Part shown: one piece after another, positions 12,277 to 30,542 of the stretch
Numbering within the stretch: position 1 is the stretch's first letter
Layout: each line of letters starts with the position of its first letter
The notes under the pieces: generated by a model
Database searches by the model: none
What the model saw: only the letters and a program-made list of their open reading frames with translations
What the model was told of the DNA's origin: nothing
NCBI RefSeq assembly: GCF_024721115.1
Contig: NZ_JAMDHK010000002.1
Coordinates: 310,001 to 374,000, forward strand
Source: Salipiger pentaromativorans
Lineage (GTDB): Bacteria > Pseudomonadota > Alphaproteobacteria > Rhodobacterales > Rhodobacteraceae
Reading direction: 5' to 3'
DNA length: 64,000 nt
Translations under genes and position numbers: made by a program

Positions 12277-12579
12277 TTATCCTTTGTTGCCGGCGGCGAC
12301 ACGCTCTTTCATCAGATGCGAGGGCCGGAAGGTCAGCACGCGGCGCGGCTGGATCGGCACCTCTTCGCCGGTCTTGGGGTTGCGCCCCACACGCGCCGCC
12401 TTGTCGCGCACCGAGAAGGTGCCGAAGGACGAAATCTTGACCTGTTCGCCACGCACCAGCGCGTCGGACATATGCTGAAGCACCGCTTCGACCAGCTCGG
12501 CGCTTTCGTTGCGCGACAGCCCGACCTCGCGGAACACCGCTTCGCTCAGATCCATGCGTGTGAGAGTCTTCTCGCTCAT
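12277..12579 (-). CDS. ihfA: integration host factor subunit alpha
   Basis: 100 residues, normal for IHF-alpha; a nucleoid protein that bends DNA as a heterodimer with IHF-beta. Recognised from [40 protein letters not shown] (beta arm; residues about 46-67) and [15 protein letters not shown]. Start at 12579 is chosen because GGGAGG precedes it; the frame is open for 26 further codons without that support. Lies between fabH and the MerR gene. Confidence 0.96.
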
Positions 12580-12686
12580 ACCCGTCCCTCCCGGTTTGCA
12601 GGCAGCATAGGCGCGGGGGAATTTCCGAGTCAATATCAAGCACTTGCGACGGCGCATTCAGAGCGTGAAAACGCCGCGAAAAGGCG

Positions 12687-13658
12687 CTACCAGCGCACCA
12701 CCACCGCGCCCCAGGCCAGACCGCCGCCAATGGCCTCGGTCACGACCAGATCGCCGGGCTTGATCTGGCCCTCGGCCTTGCCCACCGACAGCGCCATCGG
12801 GATCGAGGCGGCGGAAGTGTTGCCGTGGTCCTGCACCGTGACGATCACCTGGCTCATCGGCAGGCCCAGCTTTTTCGCGGTGCCCGCGATGATGCGGATA
12901 TTGGCCTGATGCGGCACGATCCAGTCGATCTCGGAGGAATCGACGCCGGCCTTCTCCATCGCCGCCTCGGCGGTGGCGGCGAGCTTGGCGACCGCGTGGC
13001 GGAACACCTCCTTGCCCTCCATGCGCAGGTAGCCGATGGAATTGGTGCTGACGCCGCCGTCCACATAGAGCAGCTCGCGGTAACGCCCGTCGGAATGCAG
13101 ATCGACCGAGAGCACGCCGCGGTCGTCCTTGGTGCCGTTGCCTTCGCCGGCCTCGAGGATCAGCGCGCCGGCGCCGTCGCCGAACAGCACGCAGGTGCCG
13201 CGGTCGGTCCAGTCCATGATGCGCGAGAAGGTCTCGGCGCCGATCACCATGATGCGTTTCGCCGCGCCCGAGACGATGAGCGCGTTGGCATTGGCCAGCG
13301 CATAGACGAAGCCGGCGCAGACCGCCTGCACGTCGAAGGCAAAGCCGTGTTCCATCCCGAGCCGCGCCTGCACCATGGTGGCGGCGGAGGGGAAGGTGAG
13401 ATCCGGGGTCGAGGTGGCGACGATCAGCGCGTCGATGTCGGCCACGGTCAGCCCGGCATCGGCCAGGGCCGCCTGCGCGGCGCGGGTGGCCAGATCCGAG
13501 GTGGTTTCCCCCTCGGCGGCGAAATGCCGGCGTTCGATGCCGGATCGGGAGCGGATCCACTCGTCAGAGGTGTCCAGCGTCTTTTCGAACTCTGCATTGG
13601 GGACGATGCGCTCGGGCAGATAATGCCCGACCCCTGCCACCTGCGCCCGTATGGTCAT
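12687..13658 (-). CDS. fabH: beta-ketoacyl-ACP synthase III
   Basis: Initiates type II fatty-acid synthesis by condensing acetyl-CoA with malonyl-ACP. 323 residues with the catalytic triad in place: Cys114 in QAVCAGF, His in PHQANIRI (about 249) and Asn in GNTSAASIP (about 279). Its ATG overlaps the plsX stop by 4 nt, linking phospholipid and fatty-acid starts in the classic rpmF-plsX-fabH arrangement. Confidence 0.97.
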   Translation of the reverse strand: MTIRAQVAGVGHYLPERIVPNAEFEKTLDTSDEWIRSRSGIERRHFAAEGETTSDLATRAAQAALADAGLTVADIDALIVATSTPDLTFPSAATMVQARLGMEHGFAFDVQAVCAGFVYALANANALIVSGAAKRIMVIGAETFSRIMDWTDRGTCVLFGDGAGALILEAGEGNGTKDDRGVLSVDLHSDGRYRELLYVDGGVSTNSIGYLRMEGKEVFRHAVAKLAATAEAAMEKAGVDSSEIDWIVPHQANIRIIAGTAKKLGLPMSQVIVTVQDHGNTSAASIPMALSVGKAEGQIKPGDLVVTEAIGGGLAWGAVVVRW

Positions 13659-14773
13659 GGATCCGTTCCGTCTTTCTTCTGCTCGGCGTCGCTTGCCGCG
13701 ACAGTGTCTTCCGCGGCGCTTGCCGCCGAGGCGATGCGGGCGGCGAGCCGGTCGCCGAACCCTGATTGCGCCAGATCGTAGGCGAGTTCCACGGCGGCGG
13801 CCACACCGGTGGCATCGGCGGCGCCATGGGATTTCACCACGGTGCCGTTGAGGCCGAGGAAGACCCCGCCGTTCTTGCGCCGCGGGTCGATGCGCGCCTG
13901 AAGCCGCTTGAGCGAGGTCAGTGCCAGCAGCGCGGCGATGCGCGACAGCGGCGAATAGGCGAAGGCTTCGCGCAGGAACTGGCCGATCAGCGAGGCGGTG
14001 CCCTCGCCGGTCTTCAGCGCGATATTGCCGGTGAAGCCGTCGGTGACGATCACGTCGCAGCGGTCGCCGGGAATGTCGCCGCCCTCGGCAAAGCCGACGA
14101 ATTCGTAATTGGCGGTCTCGGCATGGGCGGCGATCAGCTCATGCGCCTGCTTCAGCTCGGCGCGGCCCTTGTGCTCTTCCGTGCCCACGTTCAGCAAGCC
14201 GATGCGCGGGCGGTCGAGCGAGAGCCCGTTGCGGGCGTAGGAGGCGCCCATGAGCGCGTATTTCAGCAGATCCTGCGCGTCGGCGCGGATATCAGCACCG
14301 ACGTCGAGCATGACGTTGAACCCCTGCGGGTTCTTCGACGGCCAGAGCACCGCGATGGCGGGGCGGTTGACGCCCGGCAGCTTGCGCAGCCGCACCATCG
14401 ACAGCAGCATCAGCGCGCCGGTATTGCCGCAGGAGACTGCCACGGTGGCCTCGCCGTTGCGCACCGAATCGAGCGTGGACCACATCGAGGTGTCCTGCCC
14501 GTTGCGCATGACATGGCTGGGCTTGTCCTCCATCGAGACAACGCCCTGCGCGTCGCGAATCTCGCAACGGTCCGAAAGGCGGCGTTTCTTCTGGACCAGC
14601 GGTTCGAGCTGCGCGGCGGGGCCGTGCAGCAGGAAACGCGCGCCACGGTTGCGGCGCGCAAAAATATCGAGGCCGGCAACGATGGTTGCCGGGCCGCGAT
14701 CGCCGCCCATGGCGTCGATGGAAAGGACCAGAGGCCCGTTTGCCGACCGGTTATCCTGTGCGGAGGAACTCAT
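13655..14773 (-). CDS. plsX: phosphate acyltransferase PlsX
   Basis: Makes acyl-phosphate from acyl-ACP for the PlsY step of phosphatidic-acid synthesis. 372 residues. Family blocks: LSIDAMGGDRGP near the N terminus, SCGNTGALM, GADIRADAQDLLKYALMG and VTDGFTGNIALKTGEGTA. The C-terminal 25 residues are a short extra Ala/Asp-rich tail. Overlaps fabH; rpmF lies just upstream. Confidence 0.97.
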   Translation of the reverse strand: MSSSAQDNRSANGPLVLSIDAMGGDRGPATIVAGLDIFARRNRGARFLLHGPAAQLEPLVQKKRRLSDRCEIRDAQGVVSMEDKPSHVMRNGQDTSMWSTLDSVRNGEATVAVSCGNTGALMLLSMVRLRKLPGVNRPAIAVLWPSKNPQGFNVMLDVGADIRADAQDLLKYALMGASYARNGLSLDRPRIGLLNVGTEEHKGRAELKQAHELIAAHAETANYEFVGFAEGGDIPGDRCDVIVTDGFTGNIALKTGEGTASLIGQFLREAFAYSPLSRIAALLALTSLKRLQARIDPRRKNGGVFLGLNGTVVKSHGAADATGVAAAVELAYDLAQSGFGDRLAARIASAASAAEDTVAASDAEQKKDGTDP

Positions 14774-15173: not shown

Positions 15174-15752
15174 CTAGCCCGCGCCGTTTTCGCCGCCGTC
15201 CCCGCCATCGCCCAGCTTGTCGCGCAGCCCGGCCAGCGCCGCAAACGGGTTGGGGCGTGCCTCTTCGGCCTCGGGCGAGGCCTCCTCGGCCATGTCCGCA
15301 GCCGCCGCGGCACCCGCCTCGCTATGGGGATAAAGCGGCAGCGCCAGAGACAGCGCCTCGGAGAGCACCGCACCGAGGTCGATCACCTCGGGCAGCGGTT
15401 CCGCGTCCTCCTCGGGCGTCTCGGTTTCCGAGCCTTCCGCCGGCGCGGCGATTCCCTCGGCAGGGCGCCAGAGCCGCTCCACCGGTTCGTCGATGCGCGT
15501 GGTCACCGGCGCCAGCGTCACCACGCAGGGCTGGGTCACCGTGGCGCCCAGCATGCCCTCGAGCCGCCAGGACCCGCGCCCCTCGGGGCGAATCTCTCCC
15601 GACAGCCGCAGCTTGCGCAGCGACAGCAGCCCCAGCGCGTCCGCCAGCGCCGCGCGCGCCGTCTCGTCGGGGCGCAGATCGAACGCTGTCGGCGTGTTGT
15701 TGCGCAGCGCCGCCACGCGCAGTCTTTCCGTCGCAGAGTCGGATCTGCTCAT
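15174..15752 (-). CDS. YceD-family DUF177 protein
   Basis: 192 residues. The central part (LSGEIRPEGRGSWRLEG, then VTQPCVVTLAPVTTRIDEPV) matches the DUF177/YceD family, normally encoded upstream of rpmF and thought to act in 23S rRNA or membrane-lipid related processes. A Glu-rich loop follows, typical for the family. The start at 15752 (MSRSDSATER) is preferred to the frame extension because AAAGGCGGG lies just upstream. 169 nt separate it from rpmF. Confidence 0.88.
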   Translation of the reverse strand: MSRSDSATERLRVAALRNNTPTAFDLRPDETARAALADALGLLSLRKLRLSGEIRPEGRGSWRLEGMLGATVTQPCVVTLAPVTTRIDEPVERLWRPAEGIAAPAEGSETETPEEDAEPLPEVIDLGAVLSEALSLALPLYPHSEAGAAAAADMAEEASPEAEEARPNPFAALAGLRDKLGDGGDGGENGAG

Positions 15753-15848
15753 CGGCCCGCCTTTCCTTTGCTTGAACGGCTTGGCTTGGTTATGTAATCC
15801 GGGATAGAAACCCGCAAGGGCCAAGACAAAGGGGCAGGGGCGCAGTCA

Positions 15849-16301
15849 ATGGCAATACCCGGACGACACGCGATTGCGGCACTGGTGGCCGTGCTTGGGC
15901 TGACCGCCTGCACGGCGCAATATCGCACGCATGGCTATGCCCCCACCGAGGACGAGCTGCAGCAGATCGTGCCCGGGGTCGATACCCGCGGCACCGTCGA
16001 GGATGTGGTCGGCGTGCCGACCACCTCGGGGGTGCTGAACGAGGGCGGGTTCTACTACATCGAAACCGAGATGCGGCAATTCGCCTGGAAGGCGCCCGAG
16101 GTGGTGGACCGCGAGGTTTTGGCGATTACCTTCGACGATGCCGGCGTGGTGGATAATATCGTGCGCTACGGGCTCGAAGACGGTCAGGTGGTGCCGCTGT
16201 CGCGCCGCATCACCCGGACCAGCGATGGCGAGATGAGCTTTATCCGCAAGCTCTTCGGCAATATCGGCAGCCTGTCGCTTACCGATTTCATGGAACAGTA
16301 G
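15849..16301 (+). CDS. bamE: BamE-like outer-membrane assembly lipoprotein
   Basis: 150 residues. A signal peptide ends in a lipobox (LTAC, Cys21), so the mature protein is a lipoprotein. The SmpA/OmlA domain is visible: GYAPTEDELQQIVPGVDTR, EDVVGVPTTSG, FYYIETEMRQFAWKAPEVVDREV, ITFDDAGVVDNI. BamE stabilises the BAM machinery that inserts outer-membrane beta-barrel proteins. Divergent from the DUF177 gene; the shared 96-nt spacer must hold both promoters. Confidence 0.9.
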   Translation: MAIPGRHAIAALVAVLGLTACTAQYRTHGYAPTEDELQQIVPGVDTRGTVEDVVGVPTTSGVLNEGGFYYIETEMRQFAWKAPEVVDREVLAITFDDAGVVDNIVRYGLEDGQVVPLSRRITRTSDGEMSFIRKLFGNIGSLSLTDFMEQ

Positions 16302-16311
16302 GACCGCGACC

Positions 16312-17079
16312 ATGGACCCCCGGCACAGCATCGACGCCGCGGGGGAGGGGCCGGATGTCTTGCTGCAACGCGGGCGCCACCGCGTGCGTCTGGCGCGCGA
16401 CGGCGCCGATCTGGCGGCGGCGCAGGCGCTGCGCGGGCTGGCATTTTTCGGCCCTGGCGGCCCCAGCGACGTGGATTCCTTCGACCCGCTTTGCCGCCAT
16501 GTGCTGGTCGAGGACACGCGCGAGGGGCTGACGATGGCCTGCTTCCGCTATCTCTGGCTCGACAGCGGTGCGCAGATCGGTGGCAGCTATTCCGGACAAT
16601 ATTACGATCTCTCGCGCCTTGCGGCCTTCGACAGCCCGATGCTGGAACTGGGGCGGTTCTGCATCCGTCCGGGCCGCAGCGATCCGGACATCCTGCGGCT
16701 GGCCTGGGGTGCGATCACCGGTCTGGTGGATTCGGGCGGCGCGGGGCTGCTGTTCGGCTGCGCGAGCTTTCACGGCACCGACCCGGCGCGCTATGACGCG
16801 GCCTTTGCCCATCTGCGCGCCCGCCACGCCGCGCCCGAGCGCTGGCGGGTGGGCGAAAAGGCGCCGGAGCGGGTGCGCTTTCCGGCCGAGGGGGCGGATG
16901 CGCGGGCGGCGATGAAACTGATTCCCCCGCTGCTGCGCACCTATCTGGGCATGGGCGGCTGGGTCAGCGACCACGCGGTGGTGGACCGCGAGATGGGCAC
17001 GCTGCATGTCTTCACCGGCGTCGAGGTGGCGGCGATTCCCCCGGCGCGCGCGCGGGCGCTGCGGGCGATCGCGGTCTGA
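16312..17079 (+). CDS. olsB: L-ornithine N-acyltransferase (ornithine lipid synthesis)
   Basis: 255 residues of the GNAT-like OlsB family, which transfers a 3-hydroxyacyl group from ACP to ornithine to give lyso-ornithine lipid. Supporting blocks: AQALRGLAFFG, DVDSFDPLCRHVLVED, MLELGRFCIRPG, ILRLAWGAIT and LLFGCASFHGTDP. It starts 10 nt after bamE. The usual partner olsA, which adds the second acyl chain, is not adjacent in this window, so it would have to lie elsewhere. Confidence 0.87.
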   Translation: MDPRHSIDAAGEGPDVLLQRGRHRVRLARDGADLAAAQALRGLAFFGPGGPSDVDSFDPLCRHVLVEDTREGLTMACFRYLWLDSGAQIGGSYSGQYYDLSRLAAFDSPMLELGRFCIRPGRSDPDILRLAWGAITGLVDSGGAGLLFGCASFHGTDPARYDAAFAHLRARHAAPERWRVGEKAPERVRFPAEGADARAAMKLIPPLLRTYLGMGGWVSDHAVVDREMGTLHVFTGVEVAAIPPARARALRAIAV

Positions 17080-17088
17080 GATTTGGGC

Positions 17089-18021
17089 TCAGGAGGCTTC
17101 GCGCGGGGCGCGAAGCGCCTCGAGCCGGCGGCGGAAGCGCGGTGCGTCGAGCCGGGTGGTGACGTTCTGGCAAAGCGCCTCTGCCAGCGCCATCCGGTTG
17201 TCGGCTTCGAGCCGGGCCAGAAGTTTGCGCAGATAGGGCGCGTAATCGCGCCGGGCCCGCAGCATCCGCGCAAAGCTCAGCGTATCGAGCCGGTCCTCGG
17301 CGGCGGCGGCGAGAATCGGGATCAGAAGATCGAGGTCGAGCAGATCGCCCTGCAGCGCGCTGCCCATGAAGGGCAGGCGGAAGCGCGTCACGTTGCGGCG
17401 CTCGAACAGCGCCGAATGCATGGCGTCGAACCGCTCGTGCGGGTCGTAGAGCACATAGCCCTGCTGCGCCGCGTCCAGCATGTCGGGCGCATAGCCGTAG
17501 CGCGAGGTAAAGGTCAGGCGGCGCATCTCGGTAAAGCGGTCGTCCCATTCGGTGACGCGCGGATCGAGCGTGGCCTGCGGTTGCAGCATCACCACGCGGG
17601 CGCCGGGGGAGGCGACGGAATAGGCGCCGGCGGCATAGCCGCAGGGGCCGGCGCCGTAGAACAGCACGGTTTCGAACTCGTCGAAGAACCCGTCATCCTG
17701 CAATTGATCGAAGAACCCATAGACCTGGGCGTCGCGGAACCAGGTGTCGCGGGCCGAAATCACGCTCAGCGAAGACCAGCCCTTTTGCGCGGCAAGCTCC
17801 CAGCCCAGCGGTGTCGCGGTGTCCGAAAGCGCTTCGATCCCGGGCAGGGATTCGAAGCTCACCAACAGGGTGTCGCCGCGCTCGATGAACACCGCGTGAT
17901 GGCGCTTGCCCAGAGGTTCGGTGAATCCCTCGGTCTCGCCGATCTTCGAGATTGCGTTGATCCACTGACCCCGCGGGAGTCCGGTGAGATCGACCGTCGA
18001 AAGGTCTGTCTGATCCTGCAT
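17089..18021 (-). CDS. lineage-conserved protein of unknown function
   Basis: 310 residues, no signal peptide, no clear membrane segment. A central stretch (FETVLFYGAGPCGYAAGAYS) resembles the strand-turn-helix of an alpha/beta-hydrolase elbow but lacks the canonical GxSxG serine. Similar roseobacter proteins are, to my knowledge, sometimes labelled phosphoadenosine phosphosulfate reductase, yet no PAPS-reductase ATP-PPi loop or ECGLH motif is present, so that name is not supported. Convergent with olsB (9 nt apart), 120 nt downstream of the glycosyltransferase cassette. Confidence 0.75.
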   Translation of the reverse strand: MQDQTDLSTVDLTGLPRGQWINAISKIGETEGFTEPLGKRHHAVFIERGDTLLVSFESLPGIEALSDTATPLGWELAAQKGWSSLSVISARDTWFRDAQVYGFFDQLQDDGFFDEFETVLFYGAGPCGYAAGAYSVASPGARVVMLQPQATLDPRVTEWDDRFTEMRRLTFTSRYGYAPDMLDAAQQGYVLYDPHERFDAMHSALFERRNVTRFRLPFMGSALQGDLLDLDLLIPILAAAAEDRLDTLSFARMLRARRDYAPYLRKLLARLEADNRMALAEALCQNVTTRLDAPRFRRRLEALRAPREAS

Positions 18022-18141: not shown

Positions 18142-19212
18142 TCAGTCTTCCCGTGCCCCGGCGGCCTGGGCCTGGGCGTTGCGGGCGCGGTTGGCGTGAC
18201 CGTGCAGCAGCCGCGCCGCCTGCGGCGAGAGCGGCTGGCTGGGGGGCGTCATCATCAGGCGCCCGAGCAGCGCGCGGAAGGGCTCTTGCAGCATCAGCGC
18301 CTCGAACCGGGCCTGGCGCCAGGCCACCGCCGCATCATGCAGCGCCGCAAGCTGGGGGTCGGCGGCCAGCGCGGCCCGCTGCTCGGCCACCCGGGGCGCG
18401 AGCGCCAGAACCGAGCGGTCCTCGACGCTGTTGAAATTGCGCTCGACCCAATAGTCGAGCCCGAGCATATGATCGGAATGCACTGCCCGGCCGCGGTCGG
18501 CCTTGAGCACATAGCTTTCCATCGCGCCCAGCGGGTAATGGTTGAGCTGCGCCAGCGCATAGTTCGACCGACCGTAGTTCGAAAAGATCCGGCGGGTGCG
18601 GAACTGCCCATCCAGTTCCCGGCCCTCGCCATCGAACCAGCGCGCGGTGTCCACCCGGTCGGGATCCGGGTTGCGCGGGCGGTGAACGCCCAGCTTCCGG
18701 TAGAGGCCGCTGTTGCGGTAGAGCGTCTTGAACATGGCCGCGCGCCAGGGCCAGGACATCTGCACCGGCGCGGCGCGGAGAAACTGCTCGGTCACCGGGC
18801 GGTCCTGATAGCGCAGCACGCCGGCATTGCCGAAGAGACGCCAGGTCAGCGTGATCGCGTCGGCATCGGGCAACGCGGCGAGCAGCGCGGGCAGGGTGCG
18901 GTCGCCCACATGCACATTGACGAACTCGTCCACGTCGAGCGGCAGCAGCCAGTCGGCCGCTGCGACCGCCCCGCATTTGTCGGCCAGCTTCAGCCCGGTG
19001 AACTGGATGCCACCCTGATCGTAGGGGCCGTCGTTGCGGATATGGGTGACATGGCCCAGCTCGGCGAGACGGTCGAGCAGCGCATCGGTGCCGTCGTCGC
19101 AATCGTTCGACAGCGCCACCACATGGGTGATGCCGCAGACCAGATGATGCGCCAGCCAGTCGAGCAGGAAGGCGCCCTCGTTCCGGACGCAAAGAACCGC
19201 GACGATGGTCAA
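18142..19212 (-). CDS. DVDEF-type family 2 glycosyltransferase (last cassette gene)
   Basis: 356 residues. The GT-A fold of the Glyco_tranf_2_4 group is visible: an N-terminal VAVLCVRNEGAFLLDWLAHH, the turn SNDCDDGTDALLDRL, and the metal-binding LPLDVDEFVNVHVGD at about residue 90. Downstream blocks TWRLFGNAG and LNHYPLGAMESYVLK are shared with the other two glycosyltransferases of the cassette. Acceptor and donor are unknown; a surface-glycan role is inferred. It begins 4 nt after the FkbM gene stop. Confidence 0.85.
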   Translation of the reverse strand: MTIVAVLCVRNEGAFLLDWLAHHLVCGITHVVALSNDCDDGTDALLDRLAELGHVTHIRNDGPYDQGGIQFTGLKLADKCGAVAAADWLLPLDVDEFVNVHVGDRTLPALLAALPDADAITLTWRLFGNAGVLRYQDRPVTEQFLRAAPVQMSWPWRAAMFKTLYRNSGLYRKLGVHRPRNPDPDRVDTARWFDGEGRELDGQFRTRRIFSNYGRSNYALAQLNHYPLGAMESYVLKADRGRAVHSDHMLGLDYWVERNFNSVEDRSVLALAPRVAEQRAALAADPQLAALHDAAVAWRQARFEALMLQEPFRALLGRLMMTPPSQPLSPQAARLLHGHANRARNAQAQAAGARED

Positions 19213-19216
19213 CCGT

Positions 19217-19912
19217 TTACCAGCCTTTCCTGAAGGTGACGACCTTGGCCTCGGAGGCTTTGGGGAAATAGGTCAGCCCGGCGCGCTGCATGGCGTCGAA
19301 CACCGCCTGAACGCCGCTCTGGCCGATCCATTGCGGGTGCAGCTCGATCACCGCGCAGCGCAGCGACGACCAGTCGCCCGCGGGGATCACCTCGGCCTCG
19401 GCGCCCTCGATGTCGCAGACCAGCACGGTCGGCGCCACCTCGGCCAGCACCGTGTCGAGCCGGTGGCGGTCGATCTTCACCGTCTCGACCACCGAGGCGG
19501 GATCGGCCTCGCGATCCATCGAGGAGCCGAGGAAATTCGCCCGCACATGGAAATCGACCGGATCGCCGCCCTCGGCGGTCAGCAGCGCGTTGCGGACCTC
19601 GACATTGCCGACCTCATTGGCCGCGTGCACGCGCTTGATATAGGGGATCAGCGCCGGGTTCGCCTCGTAGCTTACCACGCGCTTGACCTTCTTCTTGACC
19701 GACAGCAGCGTCGACATATAGCCGATGCCGCCGCCCAGCTCGAGCACCGTGTCGCCGGCCTGCACCACGCGCGAGACCGCGTCGCATTCCTTGCGCTCAT
19801 AGGTGCCCTCGCGCAGCGCGCCGCGCACGCGCCCGGTGGTGAGCTGCGGGTGTTTGGGGATCAGCAGCCCGCGCGACTTGATATAGGGGCTCTTCGGCGC
19901 GCTTCCGTCCAT
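19217..19912 (-). CDS. FkbM-family methyltransferase
   Basis: 231 residues. SAM-binding motif I is VLELGGGIGYMSTLL; the FkbM signature continues with VVSYEANPALIPYIKR and VLVCDIEGAEAEVIP. Such enzymes O-methylate sugars or other hydroxyls. The ATG at 19912 lies 4 nt after the stop of the upstream fusion gene, and is preferred to the 11-codon longer reading frame that would overlap it. In this cassette it probably methylates the same glycan the transferases build. Confidence 0.85.
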   Translation of the reverse strand: MDGSAPKSPYIKSRGLLIPKHPQLTTGRVRGALREGTYERKECDAVSRVVQAGDTVLELGGGIGYMSTLLSVKKKVKRVVSYEANPALIPYIKRVHAANEVGNVEVRNALLTAEGGDPVDFHVRANFLGSSMDREADPASVVETVKIDRHRLDTVLAEVAPTVLVCDIEGAEAEVIPAGDWSSLRCAVIELHPQWIGQSGVQAVFDAMQRAGLTYFPKASEAKVVTFRKGW

Positions 19913-19916
19913 GGGA

Positions 19917-22304
19917 TCAGCTTTCCAGATCGAGGGCGAGGGCATAGGCCACCCGCTCGGTTTCCGTCAGGCGCAGGGCAAGCGCCTGCTGGTAGAGGTC
20001 TTCGAACTCGGGTGTGGCGTGCAGCTCCTCCGCCTTGGCGCGGTGCCAGGCAAGGCCGTGGTCGTGCCAGGCTTTCAGTTCCGGATCGGCCAGCAGCCGG
20101 TCGTATTCGGCGCGGACGCGGGGGATGTTGCGCTTGATGGTGATGTCCCGGACATCCGACCAATCCATCCGGATCCAGTAGTTGAGCCCGATCGAACGGT
20201 CCACATGCAGCGCGCGCCCGCGCTGGCGCTTGATCAGAAAGCTCTCGGCGCTGCGCAGGGCGTAGTGGTTGAGCTGCAAGAGGTCGTAGCCGATGGTCTT
20301 CTTCGAGCTGCGCCAGCCGTTCCTGAGCACCTCGCTTGTCATCTCGACGCCCGAGCCGTTGACCCATTTCACCCTGTCCTCGAACCCCTCCGAAAGCTTG
20401 TTGGGTCGGTGGCAAGAAATCTTCCGGTAGGCGCCGATGTTCCGGAACATCGTCTTGAAGCCCCAGACCGTGTGCGGCTTGGGGCAGTATTTCGGGGCAC
20501 AGGTGTCGAACTGGTCGATGACGAACCGGTCCGCAAGCGCCGCAACCCCGTTATGACCGAAGAGCCGCCAGGTCATCGCGACATTGGTCGCGTCCGGCAC
20601 CCGGGCGAGGAAATCGTCCAGCGTGCCGTTGCCGCAGCGCACGTTTATGAACTCGTCCACGTCGATATGGATGATCCAGTCGGCGTTCTCGATGACCGGC
20701 TCCTTCAGCGCGTTGTCGAGCGCGTGCTGCTGCGGGGAATTGCCCGTCCAATCGTCGTTACTGCGGTGCGATAATACCCCAATCTCATCGAGGCGGTTGA
20801 GAAGTTGGGTTGTCCCGTCCTCGCAACCATTTGTATAAATGAGGAAATTATCAATACCGATGGCGCGGTGGTAGGCCACCCATTCCAGGATATAGGGCGC
20901 CTCGTTCTTCATGCAGCCGACGATGACATTGCCGCTGCTGCCGTCTGGCAGGCGGCGCGGCTCCATGGGGGTATAGGCCGCCGCCAGCGCCTCTTCGTTG
21001 ACGCTGCCCAGCCTGTTATGCGGCGCGAAAGCCGACCTCCGGAGCTTTTCGAAGTTCTTTTTTGCAAGCTCTGGCATATACTTGCGCGCCGAAGGTGATA
21101 AATCGGTTTCGGTGGGCGCGGGGGCTTCGAGCCGAATGTCGGGTGCCGGCGTAGAGCTGGCGGCGGGCAGAGAGGCGAGATCGGCGGCCTTGGCCGCCAT
21201 CTCTTCCTTGGTGGCCTGGGCGATGCGCCAGCGGAAGGCCATCAGATATTGCGTCGCGCGGAACCCCTGTCCGGGATCGGCGTCTTGCCAGCCGGGGGCC
21301 GGGGCGTCGGGGGCGAGCCGCGCCGGGTCGAGCCCGGGATGGGTTTCGGCCAGCGCGGCGAGATCGGCCGCGAAGCGTTCGGAGACCGCGCTCAGGCTGC
21401 CGGGGTCGATGGGCGCGCCCTGAATCTTGATCTCGCCGAGAAACTTGCGCCAGAGCGGGCGCGGCACGATGGCCTTGCGCTGCGCCAGAAGCCGCAGGAT
21501 CACGTCATTCATCTGCCGGCAGCGCGCCAACCAGGCCGCAGAGGGCGCCTGTGGCGGGGTTTCGGCGTCGGCCTTGCCGATGTTTTCGCGGATCCCGAAG
21601 GCGGCCCGCAGCACGTCGGTGGCCTCTTCGCTGTAGAGACGGGGCAGGTCGAGACTGCGGAACACCACAGCCCCCGCGCCGAAAGCCGCCTCCCATTCCG
21701 TCTGTAACCGCCTGAAATCCAGCCAGAAGGGTGCGCCCTGGATCTCGCCGAACTGCCCCAGCAGAGGGTCGGGCGCAGGCCGGGTGGCCAGTGCGGCCTG
21801 CCACCAGTCCGGCTGCGCGAGGATTCCCAGCTCTTGCGCCAGCGAGGCGCGGCGCCCCTCCATGAGCTGCGCGGCATAGCGGCGAAGCAGCATCCGTGCG
21901 GGATCGTCGAGATGGGCGACGATGGCGATGTCTTCAGACAGAGGTGAAAGAAGAGACTTCAGTCGCTTGAATTCGCTGAAAGAAGACAAAGAAGAGCCAA
22001 GCTGATGCGCCGACAGGATCAGCGTATCGGGCTGCGCCTGCGCCACTTCCTGCGTCAATTGCCGCAGCAACTCGTCGCGCAGCGCGGCCTGCTTTGCCGG
22101 AGCGATGAAGCCACGGTTGAAGCGCAGGGAATCCACCGCCGCCGGATCGGAGACCGCCATGAAAAGCCGGGTGTGGTTCTTTGCGCCGGGCGCGCGCGGA
22201 TACAGCACGCCCTTGCCGCGCAACTGCTCGCGCTTGGCATTCAGCACCCGTTGCAGCCGGTCCGAGGACGGCCCGTCGGGCCCGATATGCACATGGATCT
22301 TCAT
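19917..22304 (-). CDS. fusion of degenerate sulfotransferase-like domain and DVDEF glycosyltransferase
   Basis: 795 residues. Residues 1-about 260 follow the pattern of sulfotransferase-like proteins (HIGP near the start, GVLYPRAPGAKNHTRLF, LILSAHQLGSSL) but the PAPS-binding P-loop expected after HIGP is replaced by DGPSSDRLQ, so the domain is probably catalytically dead. A linker of about 170 residues precedes a Glyco_tranf_2_4 domain (NVIVGCMKNEAPYILEW onward) with HIDVDEFINV, TWRLFGHNG and LNHYALRSAESFL. Two patches of low GC (about 20755-20870 and 21940-22000) stand out from the surrounding sequence. Its ATG overlaps the stop of the sulfotransferase gene. Confidence 0.8.
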   Translation of the reverse strand: MKIHVHIGPDGPSSDRLQRVLNAKREQLRGKGVLYPRAPGAKNHTRLFMAVSDPAAVDSLRFNRGFIAPAKQAALRDELLRQLTQEVAQAQPDTLILSAHQLGSSLSSFSEFKRLKSLLSPLSEDIAIVAHLDDPARMLLRRYAAQLMEGRRASLAQELGILAQPDWWQAALATRPAPDPLLGQFGEIQGAPFWLDFRRLQTEWEAAFGAGAVVFRSLDLPRLYSEEATDVLRAAFGIRENIGKADAETPPQAPSAAWLARCRQMNDVILRLLAQRKAIVPRPLWRKFLGEIKIQGAPIDPGSLSAVSERFAADLAALAETHPGLDPARLAPDAPAPGWQDADPGQGFRATQYLMAFRWRIAQATKEEMAAKAADLASLPAASSTPAPDIRLEAPAPTETDLSPSARKYMPELAKKNFEKLRRSAFAPHNRLGSVNEEALAAAYTPMEPRRLPDGSSGNVIVGCMKNEAPYILEWVAYHRAIGIDNFLIYTNGCEDGTTQLLNRLDEIGVLSHRSNDDWTGNSPQQHALDNALKEPVIENADWIIHIDVDEFINVRCGNGTLDDFLARVPDATNVAMTWRLFGHNGVAALADRFVIDQFDTCAPKYCPKPHTVWGFKTMFRNIGAYRKISCHRPNKLSEGFEDRVKWVNGSGVEMTSEVLRNGWRSSKKTIGYDLLQLNHYALRSAESFLIKRQRGRALHVDRSIGLNYWIRMDWSDVRDITIKRNIPRVRAEYDRLLADPELKAWHDHGLAWHRAKAEELHATPEFEDLYQQALALRLTETERVAYALALDLES

Positions 22305-22936
22305 GCCAGACCTTTCGCGGGCATTGCCTTGTTCTCGTTGGCCTTGCCCCACCAGGGGATCTCGATCCCCAGATGCGCCGAGAGGCGCCGCGGCGCCTCG
22401 GGATCGGCGGTGTCGTATTCCAGAAACCGGGGGTCGCCCTCGAAGATCCGCCGGAGAAAGGCGTAATGCGCGGCGATCCATTGCATGCGTTCCAGCCGCG
22501 TCTCGCCATAGCCGCGGGGAAGGCCGGGGATATTGCCGCGCGGCAGCCGGTCGGTGCCCAGATCGGACCAGCGCAGCATGGAATGGGCGGTGGCCTCGGG
22601 GTCGCGCCAGGAGGCGACGAACCGCAGTTCGGGATGCCGTTGGCGCAGCGCCTCGATGAGACCGAAATCCGTCTGCGGCCAGAGGCAGAGCGTCTTGTTC
22701 AGCACCGAGAGTTCGGTCAGCGCGTCGAAGGCGCCGAGCCGCTCCAGCGGATCGCCCGTCGCGAAATAGCCGTCGTAGAGATGACGCGCGACAAAGCTCC
22801 CGGCAATCGTCTTGTCGGGACAGGAGCGCCGCCGCAGCCGGTAATCGGCCACCCGCAGCCCGGCATGTTCCAGTGCCACGCCCAGCGTCGTGGTGCCGGT
22901 CTTGGGCAGTCCGAGATTGATGACGCGCAGGCTCAT
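22301..22936 (-). CDS. sulfotransferase family protein
   Basis: 211 residues. An intact 5'-phosphosulfate-binding loop, NLGLPKTGTTTL (residues 7-18), and a 3'-phosphate-binding region, FVASWRDPEATAHSML, mark a PAPS-dependent sulfotransferase of the Sulfotransfer_4 type. Its start (22936) overlaps the preceding glycosyltransferase stop and its own stop overlaps the next ATG, both as ATGA. Probable role: sulfation of the glycan made by the cassette; this is inference from context. Confidence 0.83.
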   Translation of the reverse strand: MSLRVINLGLPKTGTTTLGVALEHAGLRVADYRLRRRSCPDKTIAGSFVARHLYDGYFATGDPLERLGAFDALTELSVLNKTLCLWPQTDFGLIEALRQRHPELRFVASWRDPEATAHSMLRWSDLGTDRLPRGNIPGLPRGYGETRLERMQWIAAHYAFLRRIFEGDPRFLEYDTADPEAPRRLSAHLGIEIPWWGKANENKAMPAKGLA

Positions 22937-23958
22937 GACGCCAGCCCCAGCTCCTGCCGCAGTTCCAGCTCTCCGGGCGGGTAGGGCGGCAGCGCGGCGA
23001 GATGCGCGCGCATCTCGGCATAGGCGGGCTGTTCGAGCAGCGCCGCCAGCTTGTCGCGATGCCGCCGCACCGAGTCCGCGTGCAGCGCGCCGATCTCGCC
23101 CCGCTTCATCTTGGCCAGCGCGGCGGTCAGGGCCGGCAGGTGCCGCTGGATCGAGCGGTCCTCCCAGGCCGGGTCGTTGCGTTCGCGCCAATAGGTGTCG
23201 TCGAAGACGCGCCCCTCGCGGTTCACGTCGCCACGGTCGTTCTTGACCAGATAGCTGTCGAGCGAGCGCAGCGCATAATGGTTCAGCGTGGCGAAGCGGC
23301 GGGCGCCGGCGGCGGGAAACTTGCGGATCCGGCGCGGATTGGCGGCGACCAGAAACTTGTGCGGCACCGGGCGGCCCGACCCGTCTGTCCAGGCGGGGCG
23401 CCTGTCCTTGTCGAGCGTGTCGCGAAAGAACGGCCGGTGCGCACCGAAATAGTGCAGCGGGAAATCCCCGCGCACGAGCGTTTTGACCTCGATGGCGGTT
23501 TCCGCGCACCACAGATCGGGATTGTGCGACCGGGGAAACTGCGCGATCACCGGTCGGTCCTCATAGCGCTCGATCCCGCCATTGGCGAAGAACTGGAAGC
23601 TCACCGAAATCGCCTGCGGGGTGCCGCAGGCCGCGATCAGCGCTGGGATCGTGTGATCGCCCACATGGACGTTGAGGAACTCGTCCACATCGGCCACCCA
23701 GACCCAGTCGGCCCCGGTCACCACGGGCTGTTTCGCCGCGTGTTTCAGCGCCTCCATCTGGTAATTGCGCCCCTTGGCGGGGTTCGGCAGATGCACCACG
23801 CCGTAATCGCCCAGCGCGTCGAGCAGCCGGTCGGTGCCATCGCTGCAATCGTTGGAATAGATCAGGAAATCGGTCACGCCCAGCAGGCGGTTGAAGGCGA
23901 TCCATTCCAGCAGGAAGGGCCCCTCGTTCTTCACGCATGTAACGGCGGTTATGCGCAT
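22933..23958 (-). CDS. DVDEF-type family 2 glycosyltransferase (first cassette gene)
   Basis: 341 residues from an ATG at 23958 (MRITAVTCVKNEGPFLLEW). The reading frame continues 31 codons upstream, but that extension reads like non-coding sequence. GT-A marks: SNDCSDGTDRLLDAL and WVADVDEFLNVHVGD (about residue 90). Later LNHYALRSLDSYLVK matches the paralogues. It opens the five-gene cassette; the 240-nt spacer to the divergent MoxR gene must contain the cassette promoter. Confidence 0.86.
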   Translation of the reverse strand: MRITAVTCVKNEGPFLLEWIAFNRLLGVTDFLIYSNDCSDGTDRLLDALGDYGVVHLPNPAKGRNYQMEALKHAAKQPVVTGADWVWVADVDEFLNVHVGDHTIPALIAACGTPQAISVSFQFFANGGIERYEDRPVIAQFPRSHNPDLWCAETAIEVKTLVRGDFPLHYFGAHRPFFRDTLDKDRRPAWTDGSGRPVPHKFLVAANPRRIRKFPAAGARRFATLNHYALRSLDSYLVKNDRGDVNREGRVFDDTYWRERNDPAWEDRSIQRHLPALTAALAKMKRGEIGALHADSVRRHRDKLAALLEQPAYAEMRAHLAALPPYPPGELELRQELGLAS

Positions 23959-24198: not shown

Positions 24199-25107
<909 letters not shown>

Positions 25108-27374: not shown

Positions 27375-27527
27375 CCCCGGCCTGTCGCCGTCTTGCGATG
27401 AATTATGCGGCAGCCCGGGCATTCCCTTGCGTCAGCACGCGAAAAACGCTCGCAACCGACTGCGCCTTCACGCAAAACTTGTCCCCAGGGCGCGGGGAGA
27501 GGTGCCCGGGAACATGAAAAAGACCGA

Positions 27528-29246
27528 ATGACGCGAGACTTTTCACGGCTTTTCAAACCGCGCTCGATCGCTTTGATCGGGGCCGCGGCCTGGTGCTCGG
27601 GTGTGATCGCGAATTTGCGCGCGATGGGCTTTGTCTGGGACATCTGGCCGGTGGTGCCCGGCGAAAGCGCCGTGGACGGGGTGCGCGCCTTCGAATCCAT
27701 CGAGCGCCTGCCGGCGCCGCCGGATGTGGGGTTTGTCTGTCTCGACGGCGCGGAGGCGGTCACGGCGGTTGCGGCGCTGGCGCGCAGGGGCGCCGGGGCG
27801 GCGCTGTGCCAGGGCATGGCCGATCCGGCCGCGCTGGCCGAAGCGGCGGGGCGGATGCTGCTCTTGGGCCCCGGCTGCCACGGCTTCGTGAGCGCTATGG
27901 AGCGCGCCGCGATCTGGGAGGGCCCGTTGGGGCTGCGCCCGGTGAAACGCGGCGTGGCGCTGCTGGCGCGCAGTGCCAGTCTCGCGCAAAGCCTGTCGAT
28001 GCAGCGCCGGGGGCTGCCGATCGCCTGTGTGGCGGTGGCCGCGCCGGGGCCGGCGCAGACCGGCATGGCGCGTCTGGGTGCGGCGCTGCTTCAGGACGAC
28101 CGGATCACTGCGCTGGGGCTTCAGGCCGAGGATCTGGGCGATCCGGAGGCGTTTCTGGCGCTGGCGCAGGTGGCGGAACGGCTGGGCAAACCGGTGATCG
28201 TGCTGCGCGCCGGCGAAGAGCCGGGGGCGGCGGCGCTGATCGCGCGCGCTGGTATGGCGCGGGTCCGCAGCCCCGAGGCGCTGCTCGAGGCGCTGAAGAT
28301 CCTGCATGTGATGGGCGCGCTGCCGGCGAATGCGCTGGCGGCGCTGTCCTGCTCGACCGGCACGGCGCAGCTTGTGCGCGATCTGGCCGCCGCGCAGGGG
28401 CTGCGCTTTCCGCCGTTTTCCGAAGCCCAGCGCCGCGCGCTTGCCGACGATCTGGGTCCGGGCGTGGCGCTGGAGAATCCGCTCGATTGCAGCGCCGCCG
28501 TGGGCCGCCCGGCGCCGCGCATGGCGCGGATCTTTGCCGAGGTGATGTCGGGCGGCGCGGTGCTGACGCTTGCGGTGCTCGACTGCCCGCGCGAGGACCG
28601 CTGCGATGACGAGACCTGGCAGCGCGTGGCCGAGGCCGCTGCGGCGGCGCGGGCGCGGGTGGGCATGCCGCTGGCCATGATCTCGACCCTGCCCGAGGGC
28701 CTGCCCGAAGCGCGGGCCGAGGCGCTCATGGGGCAGAGGCTGATTCCGCTGGCCGGGCTTTCGGCGGCGCTCGAGGCGCTGGCCGCCTGCGTCGCGCTTG
28801 GCGGGCCGCTGCGGCGTCCGGCGCCGCTCTTCATGCCGGCGCAGGGCGCCGGGGCCGGCCTGCCGGCGCCCGATCCGGCGCAGGCGGCTGCCACGCTTGC
28901 GGCGCAGGGGCTCGAGCTTTTGCCGCCGGGGACGGAGCCGGAGGGCCCGGCGCTGGCGCTGCACCTCTCCGCCGACGCGGCCTATGGCTATGTGCTGACC
29001 TTCCGCATGGGGGCGACGCAGGTCTCGGGCCTGCTGCCGCTGCGCCGCGAGGAGGCCCGGACGCTGCTGTCCGGGCTGCCGCTCTCGGAGGAGGATGTGG
29101 CGGCGGTTGTTCCCGCGCTGCTCTCGGTGCAGGATTACGTCATCGCCCAGAAAGGGACGGTGGCCGAGCTGGAGCTCGGGTTCCGCCCGGGCTCGCGCGG
29201 CCGGGCACTGGCCAGCGGGTTGCGCATTCGCGCGGCGGGCGGCTGA
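27528..29246 (+). CDS. NDP-forming acyl-CoA synthetase-like protein, lacking ATP-grasp
   Basis: 572 residues. Starts with a CoA-binding Rossmann domain (LFKPRSIALIGAAAW) followed by two succinyl-CoA-ligase-like flavodoxin domains (LLGPGCHGFVS; later LENPLDCSAAVGRPAP). Full-length acetate--CoA ligases are about 700 residues with an SHTG phospho-histidine motif and a C-terminal ATP-grasp domain. Here the SHTG stretch is absent and only about 100 residues follow the second domain, so ligase activity is doubtful. It precedes a glycerate kinase by 24 nt, so the two are probably co-expressed. Confidence 0.75.
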   Translation: MTRDFSRLFKPRSIALIGAAAWCSGVIANLRAMGFVWDIWPVVPGESAVDGVRAFESIERLPAPPDVGFVCLDGAEAVTAVAALARRGAGAALCQGMADPAALAEAAGRMLLLGPGCHGFVSAMERAAIWEGPLGLRPVKRGVALLARSASLAQSLSMQRRGLPIACVAVAAPGPAQTGMARLGAALLQDDRITALGLQAEDLGDPEAFLALAQVAERLGKPVIVLRAGEEPGAAALIARAGMARVRSPEALLEALKILHVMGALPANALAALSCSTGTAQLVRDLAAAQGLRFPPFSEAQRRALADDLGPGVALENPLDCSAAVGRPAPRMARIFAEVMSGGAVLTLAVLDCPREDRCDDETWQRVAEAAAAARARVGMPLAMISTLPEGLPEARAEALMGQRLIPLAGLSAALEALAACVALGGPLRRPAPLFMPAQGAGAGLPAPDPAQAAATLAAQGLELLPPGTEPEGPALALHLSADAAYGYVLTFRMGATQVSGLLPLRREEARTLLSGLPLSEEDVAAVVPALLSVQDYVIAQKGTVAELELGFRPGSRGRALASGLRIRAAGG

Positions 29247-29270
29247 GGACGCAGACAAAGGACAGGCGGA

Positions 29271-30542
29271 ATGCAGGATGAACGGGCCTTTCTGACCGGG
29301 CTTTTTGAGGCCGCGGTCGCAGCTGCCGACCCCGAGCTGGCGTTGCGCTCGGCCCTGCCGGCGCGGCCCCGGGGGCGCACGGTGGTGATCGGGCTCGGCA
29401 AGGGGGCGGCGCAGCTTGCGGCCGCGTTCGAACGGCTCTGGGACGGCCCGGTCGAGGGGGTGGTGGTGACGCGCTACGGCTACGCAACGCCCTGCCGCTC
29501 GCTGCGGGTGATGGAGGCCGCGCATCCGGTGCCCGACGCGGCGGGTCTGGAGGCCAGTGCGGCGCTGTTCGACGCGGTGTCGGGGCTGACCGAGGAGGAT
29601 CTGGTGGTGGCGCTGGTCTGCGGCGGCGGTTCGGCCCTGCTGCCGGCCCCGCCCGAGGGGCTGACGCTGGAGGACGAGCAGGCGCTGAACACCGCGCTGC
29701 TGGCCTCGGGGGCGCCGATCGGGGTGATGAATGCGATCCGCAAACACGCCAGCCGGATCAAGGGCGGGCGGCTCGCGGCGGCCTGTGCGCCGGCCAAGGT
29801 CGTGAGCCTGATCGTCTCGGACGTGCCGGGGGACGATCCGGCGCAGGTCGCTTCGGGGCCCACGGTGCCGGATTCGGTCGATGCGGCGGCGGCGCTGGGG
29901 ATGATCGACGCCTGGAACATCGCGCTGCCCGAGCGGGTGTTGGCGCATATACGCAGCGCCGCCTCTGCCGCGCCGGCGCCGGAGGACCCCCGTTTCGCGG
30001 GCAACGAGGTGCATGTGGTGGCCTCGGCGCGGCTGTCCTTGGAGGCGGCGGCGCGCGCGGCCGAGGCGGCGGGCGTGCCTGCGGCGATCCTATCGGACGC
30101 CATCGAGGGCGAGGCACGCGATGTCGGTCTGGTGCATGCGGCCATCGCCCGCGAGGTGGTGGCGCGGGGGCGGCCCTTTGCGGCGCCGGTGGTGCTGCTC
30201 TCGGGCGGCGAGACCACGGTGACGCTGCGCGGCGCGGGCGGGCGCGGCGGGCGCAACACCGAGTTCCTGCTGGCCTTCGTGCATGCGATCGACGGGGTGG
30301 CGGGGATTTCGGCTCTGGCGGCGGATACGGACGGGATCGACGGCACCGAAGACAATGCCGGAGCCTTTGCCGATGGCGCCATGGCGGCGCGGCTGCGGTC
30401 GGGGGGGGAGGATGCGATGACGGCGCTCTCCCGCAATGACGCCTGGAGCGCCTTCGACCGGCTGGAGGCGCTGTTCGTGCCAGGGCCGACGGGGACGAAT
30501 GTCAACGATTTCCGGGCGATCCTGATCACGCCGGAAAGGTGA
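29271..30542 (+). CDS. glycerate 2-kinase, MOFRL/type II
   Basis: 423 residues of the DUF4147-MOFRL family. Blocks: VVIGLGKGAAQLAAAFE, VRTR-like VVVTRYGYATPCR, VCGGGSALLPAP, NAIRKHASRIKGGRLA, SDVPGDDPAQVASGPTVPD (residues about 184-202) and the MOFRL domain LLSGGETTVTLRG with GRGGRNTEFLLA. It phosphorylates D-glycerate to 2-phosphoglycerate, feeding serine-cycle, glyoxylate or tartrate/hydroxypyruvate routes into glycolysis. Sometimes misnamed hydroxypyruvate reductase (TtuD). Confidence 0.92.
   Translation: MQDERAFLTGLFEAAVAAADPELALRSALPARPRGRTVVIGLGKGAAQLAAAFERLWDGPVEGVVVTRYGYATPCRSLRVMEAAHPVPDAAGLEASAALFDAVSGLTEEDLVVALVCGGGSALLPAPPEGLTLEDEQALNTALLASGAPIGVMNAIRKHASRIKGGRLAAACAPAKVVSLIVSDVPGDDPAQVASGPTVPDSVDAAAALGMIDAWNIALPERVLAHIRSAASAAPAPEDPRFAGNEVHVVASARLSLEAAARAAEAAGVPAAILSDAIEGEARDVGLVHAAIAREVVARGRPFAAPVVLLSGGETTVTLRGAGGRGGRNTEFLLAFVHAIDGVAGISALAADTDGIDGTEDNAGAFADGAMAARLRSGGEDAMTALSRNDAWSAFDRLEALFVPGPTGTNVNDFRAILITPER

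Follow-up and report, generated by a model that had tools for sequence, protein, structure and literature searches.

The cassette and its predicted enzymes

The window analysed here, a stretch of 64,000 nucleotides from Salipiger pentaromativorans, sits on a contig of 590,725 bases in a genome of 5.28 Mb. On its minus strand, at 18142-23958, it carries a cassette of five genes coding for glycan enzymes, which are transcribed in the order GTa, ST, FUS, FkbM, GTb. A preliminary description of this DNA had proposed that the five genes are coupled, and the coordinates and junctions agree with it: ATGA overlaps are found at GTa/ST and ST/FUS, and gaps of 4 nucleotides at FUS/FkbM and FkbM/GTb. P0007, located 120 nucleotides downstream of GTb, is the sixth gene of the unit. 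A scan for promoters and terminators gave signals no more frequent than in shuffled sequence. The six genes are as follows (PAPS, phosphoadenosine phosphosulfate; AF2, AlphaFold2).

22933-23958, minus strand: GTa, predicted GT92-like/Glyco_tranf_2_4 glycosyltransferase, 341 amino acids, first gene (PF13704, PF01697)
22301-22936, minus strand: ST, predicted PAPS-type sulfotransferase, 211 amino acids, optional member (PF17784)
19917-22304, minus strand: FUS, 795 amino acids; residues 1 to about 332, sulfotransferase fold (by model) without PAPS motifs; residues about 452 to 795, predicted GT92-like glycosyltransferase
19217-19912, minus strand: FkbM-family methyltransferase (predicted), 231 amino acids, optional member (TIGR01444, PF05050)
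18142-19212, minus strand: GTb, predicted GT92-like/Glyco_tranf_2_4 glycosyltransferase, 356 amino acids, TTG start (PF13704, PF01697)
17089-18021, minus strand: P0007, alpha/beta-hydrolase fold with Ser-to-Gly change and loss of His (pseudoenzyme), 310 amino acids (AF2 model, fold matches, residues)

GTa, the C-terminal domain of FUS and GTb are predicted, from their profiles and motifs, to be sugar-nucleotide transferases. They score, respectively, 78.3, 84.9 and 72.1 bits against PF13704 (Pfam cut-off 27.5) and 33.7, 37.5 and 24.2 bits against PF01697, the GT92 family (Pfam cut-off 23). On the basis of Pfam, and in the case of FUS also of fold, we replace the plain GT2 label first given to them by the more precise GT92-like. 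All three have the DxD metal site of a GT-A fold, in the form of the DVDEF motif already noticed in GTa and GTb, and the fold itself was modelled for FUS. The HRP and LNHY blocks are also common to the three proteins. TWRLFG, which had been described as shared by the three paralogues together with LNHY, is confined to FUS and GTb, and GTa has SFQFFAN; GTa and GTb are 38% identical. The closest known system is the plant GT92 enzyme galactan synthase GalS1 (8d3t, 8d3z; PF01697/PF13704). The cassette enzymes differ from it in that they are bacterial, probably soluble and present as three paralogues per operon, one of them fused to a sulfotransferase-fold domain. The whole genome contains ten PF13704 matches, nine of them above cut-off; this family therefore serves other loci too.

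ST is a predicted PAPS-dependent sulfotransferase (30.2 bits against PF17784, Pfam cut-off 22.8). The intact PAPS loop previously ascribed to it is indeed there: it reads PKTGTT, and the aligned columns follow PK[ST]GT[TS] in 73/73 sequences, window included. Lys12 and Gly14 of the 5'-phosphosulfate-binding (5'-PSB) loop, and Arg111 and Ser119 of the 3'-phosphate-binding (3'-PB) site, are each present in all 73. Among the sequences of solved structures, ST gave only three weak matches, to VPS29 (E 0.38-0.41), and the ST profile gave one (E 0.085). APS kinase is present in the genome. FkbM reaches 48.3 bits against TIGR01444 (cut-off 37.7) and 37.3 bits against PF05050 (cut-off 22.7), and it was alone above cut-off in the NCBIfam scan. 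No strongly hydrophobic stretch was found in the cassette proteins.

Conservation and chromosomal place of the cassette

We followed the cassette in two sets of genomes, which overlap, so that their counts are not independent. Set A, obtained by scanning named genomes with FkbM, comprises the best 80 of 161 relatives, among which Salipiger species are the closest named ones; nearly all are Rhodobacterales (L041 and L047 are not, by name). The six genes GTa-ST-FUS-FkbM-GTb-P0007 lie in this order in 53 of these 80 loci and only the first five in 13 more (i.e., 66/80 with the five genes); the remaining 14 include four loci without ST and seven cut by contig ends. So as not to depend on FkbM, we built set B with FUS as the query, searching 394 family genomes (393 genera); 336 of them gave some FUS match. 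Leaving out the own genome, set B gathers the 101 loci for which the match, among the matches listed, is full length or strong over the FUS C-domain. Five of them, cut by contig ends, were dropped, and 96 were counted.

All 96 uncut loci contain GTa and FUS; GTb is found in 91, ST in 85, P0007 in 84 and FkbM in 59. In 95 of them the genes keep their order and strand; L151 is the exception. Hence, the genes are clearly neither scattered nor unlinked in other Rhodobacterales, where the preliminary description had proposed to look for their order, and their linkage goes far beyond chance. ST and FkbM are both absent from seven uncut loci, and where GTb is present without FkbM it starts 3-87 nucleotides after FUS in 32 of 33 cases. 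ST and FkbM are optional members, and the core of three glycosyltransferases is nearly not. The two domains of FUS share one open frame in 97 of the 101 loci; they are split in two loci (L147, L256), and two others are cut at contig ends. The N-domain itself is present in 99/101, the other two being contig-cut. Of 240 genomes sampled across the class, 22 gave a match at E 0.001: three belong to the family (own genome included), and the other 19 matches are partial. Plasmid records gave 168 partial FUS matches, none over 80% of FUS. In the reading that we favour, the locus is chromosomal and mostly vertically kept.

The place of the cassette in the chromosome is also recurrent. In the Ruegeria pomeroyi locus, of which ten proteins were annotated, a CoxE-VWA gene lies on one side, and genes for an amidohydrolase, a phosphoribosyltransferase, DnaB, an oxygenase, alanine racemase and MlaE lie on the other; we read the amidohydrolase and the phosphoribosyltransferase as pyrC/pyrE. 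MoxR or CoxE adjoins the cassette in 59/80 loci of set A and 81/101 of set B, and both flanks are present in 45/80 and 73/101, respectively. The cassette is thus usually located between moxR-coxE and pyrC/pyrE/dnaB-type genes. In the window, the upstream flank is of this kind, but an OlsB-like gene lies downstream:

24199-25107, plus strand: AAA ATPase, which we take to be of MoxR type, divergent upstream flank, outside the cassette (PF07728, 41.7 bits, cut-off 22)
16312-17079, convergent with P0007: OlsB-like ornithine N-acyltransferase (NF052554, 130.6 bits, model cut-off of 350 not reached)

Some genera possess only a tandem-glycosyltransferase relative of FUS. We rejected these proteins as FUS orthologues: in the ten examined, the N-terminal part is without the sulfotransferase loop and resembles, by eye, a second glycosyltransferase-like domain, and we treated them as a sister family. 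Among the 43 sister loci, 15 have at least one of the usual flanks and five have both. In these 15 flanked loci, GTb is found at 499 bits or more in 11 and a P0007 of the Gly type (see below) in 12; therefore, alternative cassettes with these genes in common may occupy the recurrent slot. Nine sister cassettes at the same slot (L135, L138, L140, L141, L142, L283, L290, L291 and L296) contain the tandem protein, GTb, a Gly-type P0007 and, in addition, a divergent hydrolase-fold gene that bears the Ser.

Two enzyme folds without their catalytic residues

FUS had been described as a fusion GT2. The glycosyltransferase part stands, as a GT92-like one, and the N-terminal part is, in the model, a sulfotransferase fold that is dead. 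In 177 FUS sequences (78 from set A, window included, and 99 from set B), the 5'-PSB Lys is found in none, the 3'-PB Arg in one and the Ser in seven (one gap per column). The closest known proteins are the PAPS-dependent carbohydrate sulfotransferases 3rnl, NDST1 (8ccy/1nst) and 3-OST (3bd9). Unlike them, the FUS N-domain is without the 5'-PSB loop Lys and the 3'-PB Arg, and it should therefore not use PAPS. The first 400 residues of FUS have no credible Pfam match, and a sequence search of solved structures with FUS gave none either. We also considered that FUS could keep an active PAPS loop where ST is absent, and rejected it (0/11 such genomes). The ratio of nonsynonymous to synonymous substitutions (dN/dS) of the two dead domains, the FUS N-domain and P0007, is 0.08-0.30 in five close pairs (GTa was left out for pairs with L026). 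The FUS N-domain has thus lost its PAPS loop yet is under purifying selection.

Outside the family, two loci (L161 and L162) code for homologues of the FUS N-domain with an intact EKTG loop. They have no Pfam match at E 0.1 and are possibly an undescribed bacterial sulfotransferase group.

The AF2 model of P0007 (mean predicted confidence, pLDDT, 89.8) matches structures of the alpha/beta hydrolase fold. At the nucleophile position, Gly is found in 58/60 sequences, Glu in 1/60 and Asp in 1/60, and the catalytic His is absent from 12/12 orthologues aligned against Ser/His-bearing relatives. P0007 relatives in sister loci keep both GASMGG and the His. Neither a credible Pfam match nor a match among the sequences of solved structures was found for P0007. 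RefSeq labels P0007 relatives as phosphoadenosine phosphosulfate reductase on 3/16 plasmid records. We rejected this function for P0007, since no PAPS-reductase Pfam domain is matched (0/41 members at E 0.1) and the model shows another fold; the database label is probably wrong. A close known system is the capsule O-acetyltransferase of Neisseria meningitidis A (6yuq), from which P0007 differs by the absence of the nucleophile.

We compared the divergence of the parts across the 52 loci that have them all, controlling each pair for the remaining parts. The FUS N-domain follows GTa (partial r 0.60, p 0.001) and not the C-domain of FUS (0.03, p 0.33). FkbM follows both GTb and P0007 (partial r 0.44 for each, both p 0.001), and ST follows P0007 weakly (0.26). 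When Salipiger and two outliers are dropped (44 loci), sign and significance hold for three pairs, and the correlation between the two FUS domains is still weak (0.09, p 0.10). Moreover, the tree of ST conflicts with the glycosyltransferase tree at 7/23 supported splits and that of FkbM at 5/29; the tailoring genes may therefore be swapped in place. ST of the Salipiger type groups with ST of Thalassococcus profundi, Puniceibacterium and Primorskyibacter (tree of loci L025-L104), which suggests a replacement in place.

Possible role of the cassette

The preliminary description suggested the assembly, sulfation and methylation of a surface glycan. A conserved cassette of glycan enzymes, with a PAPS-type ST and FkbM, stands; that the glycan would be a surface one is still what we infer. 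The absence of a polymerase, flippase or ABC exporter nearby, reported for the window, extends further. In a whole-genome search, Poly_export (PF02563) was found on contigs C7 and C3, sugar-phosphate transferases (Bac_transf, PF02397) on C37 and C3, a Polysacc_synt protein (PF01943) on C39, and ten ABC2_membrane proteins (PF01061), all on other contigs than that of the cassette, C22; other exporter families were not searched. No Wzy_C polymerase (PF04932) was found in the whole genome. Hence, the linked exporter, polymerase and initiating transferase that define a Wzx/Wzy or ABC capsule or O-antigen locus were not found here.

The reading that we favour, with a probability of roughly 0.45, is that of a soluble glycan-assembly locus of Rhodobacterales with a lipid acceptor, optional sulfation and methylation, and two dead enzymes as scaffold. 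GTa, the FUS C-domain and GTb, all soluble, would add sugars successively to one acceptor in the cytosol. This acceptor would most likely be lipid A-core (lipooligosaccharide, LOS) or another lipid of the inner leaflet, and a general flippase would then export the product. ST would add sulfate from PAPS in most carrier genomes and FkbM a methyl group in many. The FUS N-domain and P0007, having lost their catalytic residues, would bind either partners or the glycan under construction and keep the assembly line together. We favour an inner-leaflet lipid because the three glycosyltransferases form a soluble set, the slot is recurrent and may hold alternatives, no polymerase or exporter is linked, and the cassette resembles LOS outer-core loci (OCL). 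OCL are small glycosyltransferase loci with a fixed housekeeping position and alternative versions. The OCL of Acinetobacter baumannii has in common with the cassette the small size and the fixed housekeeping position, perhaps also the alternative versions, and it contains a PF13704 glycosyltransferase as well; by this analogy, the cassette resembles outer-core loci more than capsule loci. It differs from the OCL by its sulfotransferase, its FkbM, its two pseudoenzymes, an order conserved over many genera and an acceptor that is so far proposed.

A more specific picture, which we hold possible but doubtful, is that of an undescribed line scaffolded by pseudoenzymes. The dead FUS domain would read or carry the product of GTa, the dead hydrolase would hold the GTb/FkbM end, and live ST and FkbM would be swappable at two fixed points, thereby varying one conserved core glycan.

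Several observations weigh against the soluble lipid-linked assembly locus or its scaffold. The cassette is not universal, being present in at least 102/394 family genomes (own included). No lipopolysaccharide core gene was found among the annotated flank genes, the usual downstream flank is present in 0/8 Salipiger/Citreicella loci, and 28/43 sister loci have neither flank, some of them on short contigs. Within FUS, the N-domain changes faster than the C-domain (dN/dS 0.09-0.15). The data do not support a docking of ST by the dead FUS domain (ST against FUS N-domain, partial r 0.07, p 0.10), and co-divergence can have causes besides contact, so that the correlations are leads, not proof.

We disfavour, as very improbable, the idea that the cassette is a chance remnant whose degenerate domains are relics in decay. 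Two enzyme folds without catalytic residues and the two loci with FUS parts in different frames are what decay would give; the low dN/dS of the dead domains, the near-constant presence of the FUS N-domain and the gene order kept across genera argue against it. We deem it unlikely that the cassette tailors a capsule or exopolysaccharide whose synthesis and export depend on a locus in another part of the genome. The export, transferase, Polysacc_synt and ABC proteins on other contigs speak for it, and bacterial sulfated exopolysaccharides are known, e.g., synechan. The synechan genes of Synechocystis (PMC8205485) likewise serve a sulfated glycan in a bacterium; there, the whole set is reported as identified and an OPX export protein is treated, whereas our cassette was found without a linked exporter. 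Its conservation at a housekeeping slot over many genera and the lack of Wzy_C in the genome also argue against capsule tailoring. Capsule and exopolysaccharide loci are usually variable and have glycosyltransferases of their own, which we counted against this explanation too.

We think it improbable, to a similar degree, that the soluble glycosyltransferases modify an exported protein in the cytosol, in the manner known for serine-rich-repeat adhesins of Gram-positive bacteria; P0007 would then be the counterpart of Asp2/Gap2. Gap2 of the accessory Sec glycosylation system (6oyc_B) does share with P0007 an alpha/beta hydrolase fold within a glycan-assembly gene set, but it ranks only 21 by Foldseek E-value with 8% identity, and this fold is very common. 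The Ser-Asp-His triad of Asp2 is given as uniformly conserved in PMC5578698, whereas P0007 is without Ser and His, so that the likeness is one of fold only. The same source attributes to Asp2 a role independent of the triad and, together with PMC7948813, shows that a protein of the alpha/beta hydrolase fold can contribute to glycosylation independently of its catalysis. No accessory Sec, other secretion or adhesin gene was seen among the annotated flanks (one Ruegeria locus of ten proteins and some window neighbours); the genomes were not searched for SecA2/SecY2 or a serine-rich-repeat substrate. Still less probable is the synthesis of a sulfated glycolipid, e.g., on an ornithine-lipid or diacylglycerol head group. 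Some Salipiger/Citreicella relatives also have the OlsB-like gene, convergent with P0007 in the window, close to the cassette; however, OlsB is near only 7/80 loci (six Salipiger/Citreicella and one distant match of 34%), its model cut-off is not reached, and three glycosyltransferases are many for a simple glycolipid. We thus set aside the ornithine-lipid link.

To our knowledge, the surface glycans of this marine bacterial group seem to be little studied, and searches of open-licence full texts, directed at the cassette or at its parts in related bacteria, listed no description of the cassette. A defined gene set carried by so many sampled genomes, nearly all of different genera, gives a handle on what would be a conserved sulfated and methylated glycan. 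It also provides a clear case in which a carbohydrate pathway retains pseudoenzymes, one of them a sulfotransferase fold joined to a GT92-like transferase. If the pseudoenzyme-scaffolded line holds, related bacteria would share one conserved core glycan and differ in its sulfation and methylation.

Further from the cassette, the downstream segments 12277-14773 and 15174-16301 contain HU/IHF-type, FabH-type, PlsX-type, YceD and BamE genes (Pfam), an ordinary lipid-synthesis and envelope neighbourhood. At 27405-30542, on the plus strand, a gene for a CoA-binding/succinyl-CoA-ligase-like protein is followed by a DUF4147/MOFRL gene of the glycerate-kinase type (Pfam).

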